A stretch of 20,906 nucleotides of DNA from a virus, in IMG/VR virus record IMGVR_UViG_3300023435_001287, positions 1 to 20,906 of that record. One strand, 5' to 3'. A program made the translations under genes and the position numbers. The notes under the pieces were generated by a model. It was given only the letters and a program-made list of their open reading frames with translations. It had not been told where the DNA came from and ran no database searches. This document shows, piece after piece, positions 7,382-20,906 of the stretch (its first letter is position 1; each line of letters starts with the position of its first letter).

Positions 7382-7399
7382 TTTATAAAGGGGTTAAAA

Positions 7400-13887: not shown

Positions 13888-14142
13888 TTAAGATTGTTTT
13901 TTCCTTTTAAATAATGACTTTATCCAATTCCACACTTTTCTGTACCAACCACTTATCTTATTAAATACAGGATAATTAATTACTGGATGATCATATATTG
14001 TGAGAGGAAAGCCAAATCTATATTTTCTTGTAAATCCTCCATGACCATCCGGCACATTAATAAGTTGATTCCACCAATGCATTAATCGTAAATGTGCTCT
14101 TGGTATCTTTGGTTTGATTGTTGGATCAGGTGTCATTAACAT
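13888..14142 (-). CDS. Small basic protein, 84 residues, unknown
   Basis: It begins MLMTPDPTIKPKIPRAHLRL and ends with an aromatic/basic amphipathic tail (KISGWYRKVWNWIKSLFKRK), which could be a membrane-surface or nucleic-acid-binding helix. Pro- and Trp-rich throughout. It starts 6 bases after the stop of the upstream 87-residue gene; an internal Met at residue 3 is an alternative start. The upstream bases hold a perfect dyad AACATTGAATGTT spanning the start. No family recognised. Confidence 0.5.
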   Translation of the reverse strand: MLMTPDPTIKPKIPRAHLRLMHWWNQLINVPDGHGGFTRKYRFGFPLTIYDHPVINYPVFNKISGWYRKVWNWIKSLFKRKKQS

Positions 14143-14148
14143 TCAATG

Positions 14149-14412
14149 TTATGTAAGTTTTGTTATAGATGCCACACCATTATCTTCAATAATAATTTTA
14201 TAAACATCATTCTTTTTAGATGAGTCATATTCACCCTTCTTATTAGTATCTAAAGTTTGTAATGAATGATGAGTTGGTACTACCACACAATCATTGTCAT
14301 CAACCACACCAGCATATTCTTTACCATCCTGAGTCTTTTCTTCTTTTATTTTATTTTGGTACTTAAATATCTGCTTAGGATTATCACTTGTGATGTAAAT
14401 AATGTTTTTCAT
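14149..14412 (-). CDS. Small protein, 87 residues, unknown
   Basis: It begins MKNIIYITSDNPKQIFKYQN, then a polar stretch KIKEEKTQDGKEYAGVVDDN, then DCVVVPTHHSLQTLD, ending VYKIIIEDNGVASITKLT. The strand patterns at both ends (IIYIT, YKIIIE) suggest a small beta or alpha/beta fold. It starts 2 bases after the preceding gene's stop and has an A/T-rich leader. No recognised motif. Confidence 0.5.
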   Translation of the reverse strand: MKNIIYITSDNPKQIFKYQNKIKEEKTQDGKEYAGVVDDNDCVVVPTHHSLQTLDTNKKGEYDSSKKNDVYKIIIEDNGVASITKLT

Positions 14413-16940: not shown

Positions 16941-19523
16941 TTAAATATGAGCAAACTTATTAAATGATGTATTCTTTTTACGTCTAATAATAGGTGTCCA
17001 CTTATATTCCTCAATCAATAAGCGATGTAGATCCTCAATAAAGTGATCGTCTTTGTCCTTTGGTTGCCCCTTAGATGTCCTCTCATCAGCAGTTTTACCT
17101 TTGTACTCATCCCAAACATAACCTTGCAACTCCTTAATCAATCCGGTACATGACCTGAAGATATACAATTCAGGAGCACTAATCATCTGGCCATCACGAT
17201 ATTCATATTTGAAAGCATTATCAGTTCTCCTAATACACTCATGCAACTTTTTAGAGCCAGGCCTAAAGTCTAGCTTTTGTTTCTTTAGCCTTTCACCAAA
17301 GCTTACCTCAGTTGTTCTATCATCCTCATTAAAACCCGATGGATCAATAAGCCTATCAATTAGCCTAATACCAACCTCAATACGTTGTATCTCTGCCTTG
17401 AGTTCAGCATCCGTACCCTTATAAAACAATTCAGCAATGATGAACTTTCTGCCCTTATTATCAATGGCCATCCATAGCAAAGCATCCGGTACTCTTGGAT
17501 GAGTATCAAGTGCCATTGCCACAACATAATCATCTTTATTAATATCGAATGGATCTATCAAATGGATCTTAGGCTCGAAGCCCTTATGTACCAGACCTAA
17601 GAGGTGGCCGAACTTACCACCAACTCTTGATTCAATCTCATTTTCATCATATTGAGAGATCATTTTATCAATGTTTACCCTTTCTAATATTCCTCTTGTA
17701 CCCTCAACATCTTCACAATTATCCCATACAGTAGCATTTACATATTCAACCATTTTGCCATCCCTCTTATCGTAAATATCATCCTTTATCCAGGCTGAAT
17801 ATGACAATGGAGTGAAGCCCCAAATCACAATCATCCCACGTCTACCACGAGCAATACAGGCCTTGTAGATAGCTTTTGGTATTGGCTCATCAAACAATAT
17901 AAAGCCAAGATCTGTACTCTCAAACTCTTTAGCATCCTGTTCTGTAGTCATTATATCGAACTCAAAGCCAGTATCAGTAGTCCATCGGCTTTCGTATTGC
18001 TTACCCTCTTTCCTTGTATCATATTTAACATTGTACCTGTTGGATGGAAACCATTTTTTGAGTTCCGGCACAATCTTCATCTTGATTGTAGTTGGATCTG
18101 ATACAATTCTACCCACCTTGAGATAAGGAAAGTCATTAAATAATGGATAATCAAAGAATGATTCAGGTGGCACACCCCATTTCTCTTTCCATCTGCTCCG
18201 GTTAAGATCATGCTTAGGAGCACCAAAACAAATAGCATTTAGGATGTTGACCATAGCACATGAATTGCCGGTAGAAATGAAATCATGAGTAATAAAACAA
18301 TGTTTAGGATGGTCAACTTCTAACCCCATACATTCAAACTCACCAACATATTCAATATTCTCTACAAAACGATTAGAATAGTCCACAGGTTTTTTTGAAA
18401 TCTTTTGCTTCCTTTTTAATGATAATGGTAATTCGTAATCAAACTTCCAATATACTCTGTAAAATGTTTTTTCTTTACCATTGGTAAAATTAGTTATTAT
18501 GTTTCTTTCTTTTAAATTCGCTATTCCACCCAAGCCCCTAACTAGAAATACAAAATCATTTGCAAGTCTTTTACTCTTACTTAAATATTCTTTATAAGTT
18601 CCATCAGTATCTATTAAGCCTGATAATATCTGCTTTCTGTCTTCTATTGAAGCAGTTTTATACATGTGAGGTACAAACTTATCGCCTGAGCCTAAACCAT
18701 ATACTCCAAGCTCTTTTAACGATTCTTTCAATCTATTCACCTGCCCAGTAGCCTTTAATGATGGCTCAGTAATACTAAAACTATTACTACCATCTTTTGA
18801 TTTATTCATTTTCATTCCCATTTGCTTTACTATTTTACCAATTCTAATTGGCACTTCTTTATCAAAACTAGTAAATGACAGCCCATGCCCTTCTCTAATA
18901 CAACCATCACCTAATAACACACCTAAAAGATATGGATCAATAGGTAAATGAGAATTATTATCAAATTCAATTTGTTTCGGTTGTAAAAATTTTAATTTTC
19001 CACCAACATTATTTATCTTTCTATCTATAATCTCATCTAATCTTCGTTTTTTTATAGCTGACTTTCTTCCACTTCTCATTCTCATTGGAAAACTATGATT
19101 CCCAGAAGCCTCAACAAATGTACCATCTTTAAAATTAACACGATAAACTTCTTTTTTGCCAGAATCCCAAATGTCAATAACCTTTGATGGTTTTGCTAAT
19201 CCACTTTCATAATCATGTCCTAATATCATATCACCAGCAACTATTTCATCCATTCTTTTATAATAACCATCAGCCATTAAAACAGGAGCATCTTTCTTAA
19301 GGCATTTACCAACCCCATTAGCAGCCACAAACATATTAACAAATGCCTTGTTCTCTCCAACTTGCTTAATAAACTCTTCTGTTTTCACATTGGGCACAAA
19401 TGTTTCAGCCATATTTTCTACCTGCCTTTTATCCAACTCATCCTTAATAGCCAAAAATTCCTGCACATCTTCACGAGGTAGTTTTTTTAATTTTGCTTTT
19501 ATTTGTTCATCTACTGTTGGCAT
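16941..19523 (-). CDS. terL: Terminase large subunit, intein-containing
   Basis: The 860-residue precursor contains a 347-residue intein (residues 74-420); the spliced product would be 513 residues, normal for TerL, the motor that pumps DNA through the portal and cuts it. After removal of the intein the Walker A motif is AANGVGKS (67-73 plus Ser421). Walker B is GFILFDE with D545-E546. The C-terminal nuclease domain shows VVAMALDTHPRVPD (D673), then LIDPSGFNEDD (D727), then KDKDDHFIEDLHRLL, the expected D...D...D/H arrangement of an RNase H-like nuclease. The start at 19521-19523 (ATG) follows a candidate 25-residue peptide by 3 bases. Without splicing the ATPase would be inactive. Confidence 0.9.
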   Translation of the reverse strand: MPTVDEQIKAKLKKLPREDVQEFLAIKDELDKRQVENMAETFVPNVKTEEFIKQVGENKAFVNMFVAANGVGKCLKKDAPVLMADGYYKRMDEIVAGDMILGHDYESGLAKPSKVIDIWDSGKKEVYRVNFKDGTFVEASGNHSFPMRMRSGRKSAIKKRRLDEIIDRKINNVGGKLKFLQPKQIEFDNNSHLPIDPYLLGVLLGDGCIREGHGLSFTSFDKEVPIRIGKIVKQMGMKMNKSKDGSNSFSITEPSLKATGQVNRLKESLKELGVYGLGSGDKFVPHMYKTASIEDRKQILSGLIDTDGTYKEYLSKSKRLANDFVFLVRGLGGIANLKERNIITNFTNGKEKTFYRVYWKFDYELPLSLKRKQKISKKPVDYSNRFVENIEYVGEFECMGLEVDHPKHCFITHDFISTGNSCAMVNILNAICFGAPKHDLNRSRWKEKWGVPPESFFDYPLFNDFPYLKVGRIVSDPTTIKMKIVPELKKWFPSNRYNVKYDTRKEGKQYESRWTTDTGFEFDIMTTEQDAKEFESTDLGFILFDEPIPKAIYKACIARGRRGMIVIWGFTPLSYSAWIKDDIYDKRDGKMVEYVNATVWDNCEDVEGTRGILERVNIDKMISQYDENEIESRVGGKFGHLLGLVHKGFEPKIHLIDPFDINKDDYVVAMALDTHPRVPDALLWMAIDNKGRKFIIAELFYKGTDAELKAEIQRIEVGIRLIDRLIDPSGFNEDDRTTEVSFGERLKKQKLDFRPGSKKLHECIRRTDNAFKYEYRDGQMISAPELYIFRSCTGLIKELQGYVWDEYKGKTADERTSKGQPKDKDDHFIEDLHRLLIEEYKWTPIIRRKKNTSFNKFAHI
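18264..19304 (-). other. LAGLIDADG-containing intein inside TerL Walker A
   Basis: Coding sequence for residues 74-420 of the TerL precursor. It begins with Cys74 and shows a class 1 intein block A (CLKKDAPVLMADGYYKRMDE followed by IVAGD), a block B-like EASGNHSF (S-x-x-H, usually T-x-x-H), two LAGLIDADG helices (LLGVLLGDG about 199-207 and ILSGLIDTDG about 299-308) and a block F/G end EVDHPKHCFITHDFISTGN before Ser421 as the +1 nucleophile. Both LAGLIDADG acids are kept, so the homing endonuclease may be active. The penultimate residue is Gly rather than the usual His. Inserted exactly between Lys73 and Ser421 of the P-loop. Sampled lines of this segment look more AT-rich than several TerL lines. 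Confidence 0.9.
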
Positions 19524-19618: not shown

Positions 19619-20008
19619 TTATTTCCCAAGCACCTTACTCATTATCTCTGCAGCCCTCTCTTTCAATTCTTCATCCGATAAATCCTTGAGTTTTAATTCA
19701 CCCTCAACATCATGCTCAATTCGATCACCCCAATCCCTTTTGGTTTCTTTGTGGTGAGTTAAGAGCCACTTGGCCGTAGCTGTGTCCTCTTTGCCACCAC
19801 CCAATACTTTCTTCTTGGCATCCCACAATGGCTGTTGGCTTAACCTCTCAGCCTCTTTAGTATTATCTCCATGCCCAAACCATTCCATGATCTTCATGTA
19901 GTCTAATCCGGTTTCAAAACAAATGTCCTGAGCTGTGCTTGCTCCTACAGCAAGTGCCTCTCTGATATCTTCATCTTCTTCTGGTGTGTATGGTGGCTTG
20001 TCTTCCAT
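19619..20008 (-). CDS. terS: Terminase small subunit
   Basis: From ATG 20006-20008 this gives a 129-residue protein beginning MEDKPPYTPEEDEDIREALA. Residues about 15-50 (REALAVGASTAQDICFETGL, then DYMKIMEWF) have the helix-turn-helix-like organisation of small terminases, which bind packaging-start DNA and hand it to TerL. The middle and C-terminal parts contain TATAKWLLTHHKETKRDWGD, a pattern seen in many TerS proteins (x-A-x-W/Y-L ... W-x-D/R). The C-terminal acidic helix LSDEELKERAAEIMSKVLGK could contact TerL. An in-frame GTG at 20021-20023 would add five residues; I prefer the ATG because it follows the A/T leader. It is directly before terL and next to the repeat-rich noncoding region. 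Confidence 0.8.
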   Translation of the reverse strand: MEDKPPYTPEEDEDIREALAVGASTAQDICFETGLDYMKIMEWFGHGDNTKEAERLSQQPLWDAKKKVLGGGKEDTATAKWLLTHHKETKRDWGDRIEHDVEGELKLKDLSDEELKERAAEIMSKVLGK

Positions 20009-20115
20009 ATTTTTAAAATACACCTTTAAGGGGAAAAGTCAAATGAGGTTGGTGAGGCTGAAAAAATCAAGGAGGAAATTTGTTGAACACATTTTTTATG
20101 TCAACCCCCCTCAAA

Positions 20116-20617
20116 GGGGTAAAGTTGAAAAAAATCAGCCCCATTGTTATTACATATATTTACTACTATTATGATACCTATAAGATAGAGAGATAACTTT
20201 AACACTTTACCCCCTAGTATAAAAAAAAGAGCTTATCTACTACAAAATCGTAGGGGTAAAGTTTGGGGGTAGAGTTTGAAATTAAAACGTCAACTTTACC
20301 CCTTTGTATATTTGTACAACAATTTTCCAACACGAATTCATATCTGACCTTAGCCAAATGAGAAAAATTTGACTTTTTTGGCACTTATGTTTAATTATGA
20401 CACATTTTAAATTTATGTATTAAGAGAAACCAAGTCTTTAAGCCACCAACTTTCTTGACTTGGTAAATTTCTATTATATTATATCCCTCCAATATCACCA
20501 GTTTTCTATCACATTATGTCAAGATTATGATATAATATGTGGTGTTATATACAGAAAAGGCCTCTAGGGGGTAAAGTTGGTGCTAAAGTTGAGCTCTTTT
20601 TTTCCAAACTTTACCCC
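20116..20617. repeat. Seven-copy bidirectional motif GGGGTAAAGTT
   Basis: Copies on the plus strand: 20116-20126, 20253-20263, 20266-20276 (GGGGTAGAGTT, one change) and 20568-20578. On the minus strand: 20204-20213 (AGT, not AGTT), 20292-20302 and 20607-20617. An extra half-copy CTAAAGTTG lies at 20583-20591. The extended copies at 20112-20128 and 20290-20306 are perfect 17-bp reverse complements. I saw no further full copy in the rest of the window. The clustering, variable spacing and mixed orientation are typical of protein-binding arrays, not of a mobile element. Confidence 0.85.
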
Positions 20618-20618
20618 C
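20567..20618. repeat. Long inverted repeat, 14-bp arms
   Basis: GGGGGTAAAGTTGG (20567-20580) is the reverse complement, apart from a one-base bulge, of CCAAACTTTACCCCC (20604-20618). The 23-base loop carries a third half motif (CTAAAGTT) and the palindrome GAGCTC. In DNA it could extrude as a cruciform; in RNA it would be the strongest hairpin of this region. It is made of two opposed copies of the repeated 11-bp motif. Confidence 0.7.
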
Positions 20619-20698
20619 AGACTATTTTTTTACTGATATGTTATAGTATACAAAAATACCACTAATCACAAGAGGGTTAAAATACTTTCTTCTTGATT

Positions 20699-20706
20699 TA
20701 TTTTTG
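20699..20706 (+). promoter_or_regulatory. Bacteroidota-type -7 box (TATTTTTG)
   Basis: TATTTTTG matches the TAnnTTTG -7 consensus of Bacteroidota exactly. Nineteen bases upstream is TTA (20677-20679) where TTG would be expected, so the -33 element is imperfect. A transcript would begin near 20713 on the plus strand and pass through the nested inverted repeats (20741-20852) towards the ATG at 20893. A second exact match (TATATTTG, 20307-20314) lacks a TTG at the right distance but directly follows one repeat copy. Chance matches are expected in AT-rich DNA. Confidence 0.3.
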
Positions 20707-20740
20707 GATCTGTGTTAGTATTCTTCACGCAAACAAATTT

Positions 20741-20852
20741 AGCTCCGACACCAACTATGTTCAAACCTCAACCACCATCGTTTTTATTATCTTTGAAACA
20801 CCCAATCACTACGTTGAGGTTCTTTTGTCGGAGCTGTTTTGGTTGGGTGTTT
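20741..20852. repeat. Nested and interleaved inverted repeats (three arm pairs)
   Basis: Pair A: AGCTCCGACA (20741-20750) with TGTCGGAGCT (20826-20835), perfect 10 bp. Pair B, nested inside A: AACCTCAAC (20764-20772) with GTTGAGGTT (20813-20821), perfect 9 bp. Pair C: AAACACCCAATCA (20796-20808, in the loop of B) with TGGTTGGGTGTTT (20840-20852, outside A'), 13 bp with one G-T. C crosses A and B, so both cannot form fully at once; the region can switch between an A/B stem-loop and a C hairpin that ends in a T-run (20850-20854). Compatible with a regulatory RNA leader, an antitermination switch or a DNA recognition site. Confidence 0.75.
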
Positions 20853-20906
20853 TTAGGGTAGTAACAATATAACTAAATAACCCCAATATAATATGAAAGA
20901 GAAAGA

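Follow-up and report, generated by a model that had tools for sequence, protein, structure and literature searches.

Gene organization of the locus

The window, by which we mean the whole stretch of DNA analyzed here, is an entire IMG/VR record of 20,906 bp from an uncultured phage. An array of short repeats lies in a gap upstream of its late genes, with the following surroundings.

16941 to 19523, minus strand: terL, with an intein in the Walker A motif (PHROG match, and an intein model below its curated cut-off)
19619 to 20023, minus strand: putative terS (small terminase), the first late gene (phrog_1482, E 1.8e-4; directly before TerL)
20024 to 20890: gap of 867 bp without a convincing gene, which holds the array (only ORFs of less than 80 aa, some overlapping terS)

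The gene downstream of the array is plausibly terS, as a sequence-only reading of this DNA had assumed; its PHROG match is weak, and TerL is directly next to it. A structure model of its product is of low confidence (mean pLDDT 58) and has three N-terminal helices. The TerL intein is placed, by eye, between the GVGK and the S of the Walker A motif. The TerL of a distant locus (L004) apparently carries an intein at the same site, and the TerL inteins of two relatives (G003 and G006) lie at other sites.

A second contig, IMGVR_UViG_3300025669_000099 (G001; 38,105 bp), differs from the window at 18 of 20,897 aligned positions (99.9% identical), none of them in the gap, and the two sequences diverge after window position 20897. 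Twelve of the 18 differences cluster within 76 bp (1269 to 1344) of one late-strand gene (201 to 1649), where seven are consecutive (1338 to 1344) and three residues are changed. In addition, about 430 bp of the window, at 13908 to 14335, are missing from strain G002 (L012).

In G001 the late genes extend from terS to about 29.5 kb, and from 38.1 kb the early genes run in the opposite direction, such that the gap upstream of terS is where both arms would be expected to start. The early genes include a helicase piece, an exonuclease, SSB, a resolvase-like gene and HNH pieces, and another encodes, by our reading, an Erf-like protein. The last 99 bp of G001 hold the first 33 codons of a gene directed away from terS, which has no match in the phage collection. 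The opposite strand is open there too, for 29 codons to a stop, so the gap might instead follow a gene that runs with terS. Nevertheless, the gene directions make it likely that divergent transcription units flank the gap. Known regulator and initiator families were matched by none of the 17 early-strand ORFs of the incomplete G001 genome in a PHROG search covering all ORFs of at least 70 aa in L007 9577-18104, and several of these ORFs have no match of any kind.

An 11-bp word is repeated in both orientations

The word GGGGTAAAGTT occurs seven times at 20116-20617, five copies being exact and two having one mismatch, in the order + - + + - + -, and the spacings from start to start are 87, 50, 13, 26, 276 and 39. 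More degenerate copies accompany these sites.

20030 to 20040, plus strand: degenerate copy GGGGAAAAGTC, immediately upstream of the terS frame, of uncertain membership (two mismatches)
20116 to 20126, plus strand: exact copy of GGGGTAAAGTT, site C+ (word search and shuffle statistics)
20195 to 20205, minus strand: degenerate copy GTGTTAAAGTT, overlapping C- (two mismatches)
20203 to 20213, minus strand: one-mismatch copy GGGGTAAAGTG, site C- (word search)
20253 to 20263, plus strand: exact copy, site B+, first arm of block B (word and inverted-repeat search)
20266 to 20276, plus strand: one-mismatch copy GGGGTAGAGTT, within block B (word search)
20292 to 20302, minus strand: exact copy, site B-, second arm of block B (word and inverted-repeat search)
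20568 to 20578, plus strand: exact copy, site A+, first arm of block A (word and inverted-repeat search)
20580 to 20590, plus strand: degenerate copy GTGCTAAAGTT, within block A (two mismatches)
20607 to 20617, minus strand: exact copy, site A-, second arm of block A (word and inverted-repeat search)

The clustering of this word is beyond what dinucleotide composition yields. Specifically, in 1000 dinucleotide shuffles of 20024-20890, with words of fewer than three letters excluded, the commonest 11-mer occurs one to three times per shuffle versus the five copies observed. The corresponding 10-mer and 9-mer each occur six times in the gap, versus at most three and at most four in the shuffles. 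When up to two mismatches are allowed, the whole window has 11 matches against a shuffle mean of 6.2, and 5 of 100 shuffles reach 11. This count is unremarkable, and thus the significance of the array rests on its exact copies.

Outside the gap, the window holds a single two-mismatch match, at 7391. In the longer contig, all seven matches with at most one mismatch lie at 375-876, where the array is unchanged, and the rest of the 38.1 kb contains no further copy at this threshold; GGGGTAAAGTT read backwards, as a control, gives one match. The repeated sites are therefore confined to the putative control region of this 38,105-bp contig, and within the sequence at hand the array is real and confined to the gap. 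Both copies of the array come from phages that are 99.9% identical and so do not constitute independent conservation. The seven-copy motif, its order of orientations, its absence elsewhere and the A/T hexamers beside two of its copies had all been described in the sequence-only reading, and each of these descriptions holds.

Two blocks of the same layout enclose a slightly A+T-richer center

The sites farther from terS form two larger units on either side of a central segment.

20253 to 20302: block B, 50-bp unit with a plus copy, a one-mismatch plus copy at 13 bp and a minus copy at 39 bp (word and inverted-repeat search)
20568 to 20617: block A, 50-bp unit with a plus copy, a two-mismatch plus copy at 12 bp and a minus copy at 39 bp (word and inverted-repeat search)
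20303 to 20567: 265-bp center between blocks B and A, about 71% A+T compared to 66% for the window (composition count)
20455 to 20482 and 20508 to 20536, plus strand: promoter-like sequences in the center
20369 to 20398, plus strand: weaker promoter-like sequence in the center
20423 to 20394, minus strand: promoter-like sequence in the center

Blocks A and B are identical in layout and have the same orientation on the DNA, and sites C+ (20116) and C- (20203) lie closer to terS than either block. As had also been suggested, the copies are in part paired as long inverted repeats. Perfect pairs of 17 nt (20112-20128 with 20290-20306), 14 nt (20253-20266 with 20604-20617) and again 14 nt (20204-20217 with 20564-20577) are present, and thus inverted pairs of 14 to 17 nt also link distant copies. 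Two of the three minus copies come two bases after TATACW, a spacing compatible with a site at a possible transcription start toward terS. Over 19900-20906, six promoter-like sites are found, which is no excess over chance (4.0 in shuffles, sd 1.9). We also considered a promoter for a phage RNA polymerase and rejected it, as the sequences after the copies, compared by eye, have no common second element at a fixed distance.

Block B and its flanks fold as a hairpin (z -3.1 and -3.8 for the two strands), as does block A (z -4.4 and -3.2), and this folding follows from the inverted arms. Sites such as nut and put act as leader RNA elements in transcripts. By analogy, blocks A and B might serve as leader hairpins, and both indeed have outer stems of 12 to 14 bp with the z values given above. 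We find this reading improbable. The stems are explained by the inverted arms, the C sites form no such hairpin (z -1.6 and -0.3), and because both blocks have one orientation on the DNA, divergent transcripts would carry them with opposite polarity. No Rfam match in the window reaches the gathering score; the two sub-threshold matches in the gap (E 0.3 and 0.58, the latter to mir-2943 in block A) were taken as chance. Furthermore, the gap is identical in the two contigs and offers no sequence variation against which pairing could be judged.

Two other repeats lie near the array. At 20741-20852 on the plus strand, just before a putative early gene, three inverted repeats of 9 to 10 bp interlock, with pairs AGCTCCGACA/TGTCGGAGCT and AACCTCAAC/GTTGAGGTT and a crossing pair AAACACCCAA/TTGGGTGTTT that is followed by T's. 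This segment has folding z scores of -3.6 (plus strand) and -3.1 (minus strand), its first two pairs alone are matched by 1 of 2000 shuffles, and it has no Rfam match; it may be a pseudoknot-like leader or attenuator. Separately, a 15-bp exact direct repeat, AATACTTTCTTCTTG, occurs at 19803-19817 inside terS and at 20681-20695 beyond the array.

Repeats in the corresponding gaps of related phages

A scan with the major capsid protein yielded 11 loci, two from the same species (G001 and G002) and nine at 32-46% identity. The window TerL has no match among these nine at E 1e-3. ORFs upstream were listed for seven of the loci and for G010. The TerL candidates of seven relatives all match phrog_2 or phrog_38, and the window TerL matches other families. 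In the search of related phages that the sequence-only reading had recommended, the array is present in G001 and absent from all ten related records, which have no exact copy, and four of which have a single one-mismatch match. This absence decides nothing, because the readable relatives use other TerL families and another record, G002 of the same species, stops short of terS. The DNA before TerL in two further distant loci from a TerL scan (L004 and L005) likewise has no such array.

One relative does have a closely comparable arrangement. In G006, 240 bp separate an O-like gene from the late operon. This gap includes CTAGCGAGTT three times without mismatch and in mixed orientation, with 31 nt between the arms of one pair, and also an inverted repeat of 24 nt whose arms are 30 nt apart. 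None of 2000 shuffles of this gap reaches three copies of a 10-mer, and no other CTAGCGAGTT is found at up to one mismatch elsewhere in the 28.7-kb contig. The terS of G006 (phrog_51, E 5e-12) is the fourth gene of the late operon, and the iterons of this phage are separate from the gap array, being inside the O-like gene. In this one relative, therefore, the mixed-orientation array belongs to the gap between early and late genes rather than to terS or to iterons. This suggests that arrays may follow the early/late gap while differing completely between relatives that have portal and capsid genes in common.

The gaps examined in G004, G005 and G007 contain no multi-copy motif; G005 has one 12-nt inverted repeat and G004 a two-copy tandem. 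Two-copy repeats and a palindrome are all that the gap of G010 presents, with no multi-copy array. A search for clustered, repeated 9-mers in the relatives revealed words repeated four times within one gene of G003 and within one of G010, as well as two iteron-like arrays inside O-like initiator genes.

L024 6370-6530 (G004): in-gene iterons, O-like initiator gene (repeated 9-mer search)
L026 7486-7645 (G006): in-gene iterons, O-like initiator gene (repeated 9-mer search)

An HTH gene of G003 (L023 16316-16735, minus strand), which has weak terS and DNA-binding matches, contains GATGTTGCA four times in a stretch of about 80 bp.

The array compared to known packaging sites

The copies have been proposed to be sites recognized by TerS within a cos or pac element, near which TerL would make its first cut. 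The array does lie directly upstream of terS, from 20030 to 20617, and the absence of the motif from relatives with other terminases is what covariation of motif and TerS would predict. The three N-terminal helices of the low-confidence TerS model might also be counted in its favor. As in the R sequences of lambda cosB, where R2 points the other way from R3 and R1, a short word recurs near terS in mixed orientation (PMC4669245). However, the cos of lambda-like phages spans about 200 bp and includes three R sequences (PMC4669245), whereas at least seven sites are spread here over about 500 bp, more than twice that length, and a cut site and TerS binding are hypothetical for the present array.

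The pac regions of SPP1 and SF6 provide a second comparison, in that repeats cover the promoter region and the start of terS. The SPP1 boxes, though, are three sets of direct repeats, unlike the single word in both orientations seen here. Moreover, the SPP1/SF6 repeats at the terS promoter are not recognized by the DNA-binding domain of TerS (PMC4737164), and thus repeats beside terS are not proof of a packaging site. The comparable array of G006 does not adjoin terS, and the window and G001 contigs both cross the whole array unbroken, which speaks mildly against cohesive ends inside it. We therefore consider TerS recognition sites unlikely, and repeats beside terS should be called packaging sites only on the strength of binding or end-mapping data.

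The array compared to replication origins

The copies could instead be iterons for a phage initiator, with the slightly A+T-richer stretch between the blocks acting as an unwinding element, a reading that we regard as doubtful although it ranks above TerS recognition. By synteny, the initiator genes of G004, G005 and G006 lie near the same boundary, and the gap before the late genes of G011 holds three direct repeats of AGTGGATAA, DnaA-box-like with one mismatch (L028 3204-3245), which would fit an origin. The initiator of the phage itself was not found in 38.1 kb and so is possibly encoded in the missing part, perhaps beside the array. Like the in-gene iterons of G004 and G006, the array consists of a short word in many copies clustered at one locus. 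In contrast to the array, those iterons all repeat in one direction, at intervals of mostly 18-24 bp interrupted by one or two wider gaps, and they lie inside the initiator gene, with G006 having its own gap array in addition. The mixed orientation and irregular spacing of the copies differ from the regular direct repeats of an iteron origin, the A+T content of the center is little above that of the window, and the gap has no DnaA box at fewer than two mismatches.

The identity of the word initially appeared to favor an origin. In scans of IMG/VR, its 9-bp core, GGGGTAAAG, is present in two to six copies in O-like or DnaD-like initiator genes of unrelated viruses (e.g. L035, L041, L044, L046, L054 and L060). 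However, direct repeats of the reversed word, used as a control, likewise fall in initiator genes; the real word does so in at least 7 of 45 ORFs and the control in at least 4 of 72. These counts are lower bounds because they include only members of phrog_270, the family matched by most. They were made after dropping stretches with no closed ORF of at least 100 aa over the match (38 of 97 for the motif, 23 of 110 for the control) and ORFs longer than 600 aa (14 and 15, respectively). L046, an initiator by PHROG scan, was left out because the locus ends within its frame, and L062, taken by eye for an initiator, has no PHROG match. The control covered direct repeats only; a scan for inverted pairs placed 6 of 20 stretches over initiator ORFs, five of the six having been scanned against PHROGs and the sixth, L045, showing the same ORF as L044. 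By this comparison the core word is not special, its identity is not used as evidence, and the case for an origin on that basis was dropped. More generally, repeated short words may be iterons.

Candidate operators at the early/late control region

We tentatively favor, at a probability somewhat short of even, an array of operators for one sequence-specific DNA-binding protein that acts between the early genes and the late operon led by terS. This explanation ranks ahead of an origin, which is followed by TerS sites and then by RNA elements. Several findings support it: the motif occurs only in this gap within 38.1 kb, the known early and late genes run in opposite directions, blocks A and B are alike in their internal layout, and G006 has its comparable array in the early/late gap away from terS. 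Against operators count the lack of a promoter excess over shuffles, the absence of a regulator family among the 17 early-strand ORFs of an incomplete genome, and the fact that G006 alone among the relatives has a closely comparable array. Of the three options raised by the sequence-only reading, divergent operators are thus the best supported, iterons are possible, and TerS or cos sites gained no specific support.

The binding, the protein and the regulatory effect we infer as follows. A protein encoded by the phage would bind the additional sites close to terS as well as the inverted pairs of A and B. The two blocks might be bridged by a loop, such that the protein grips both sides of the 265-bp center, and binding would set the balance between early and late transcription. 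A familiar precedent is the OL/OR system of lambda, in which several sites for one protein, each a 17-bp palindrome, occupy a control region between oppositely transcribed arms and participate in looping. The present array resembles it in having multiple sites between probably opposed arms and a possible two-block loop, and differs in that an asymmetric 11-bp word forms inverted pairs 39 bp apart and the regulator is putative.

In a variant to which we give very little credence, a single array would be both the early/late switch and the packaging start. TerS or a partner protein would bind the A and B pairs, shut off early transcription and mark the DNA for packaging; if true, late expression and packaging would be coupled at one site. 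As candidate operators, the array is a familiar type of element, unusually arranged, from phages about which little is known, and it provides a precise, testable candidate control hub for uncultured phages of this group.

Occurrences of the word in other sequences

A comparison of the gap to phages and plasmids returned only chance pieces of 27-31 bp (E 0.2-0.9), and hence no host or mobile repeat. A scan of the genome collection for the paired word gave four matches with one pair each and no array, and on inspection these were rejected as unrelated hairpins or chance. Among the literature matches listed for the core word GGGGTAAAG, the one paper on phages has it in a table of CRISPR spacers. 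In separate literature searches, the titles and abstract openings listed mention nothing on such an array. Near-identical stretches of two other loci (L119 14300-14700 and L112 7250-7636) contain a non-coding array in which eight to nine copies of GGGGTAAAG are mixed with AGCGCTTGAG-like repeats, and the array in L119 is about 2.6 kb away from where a TerL gene starts.
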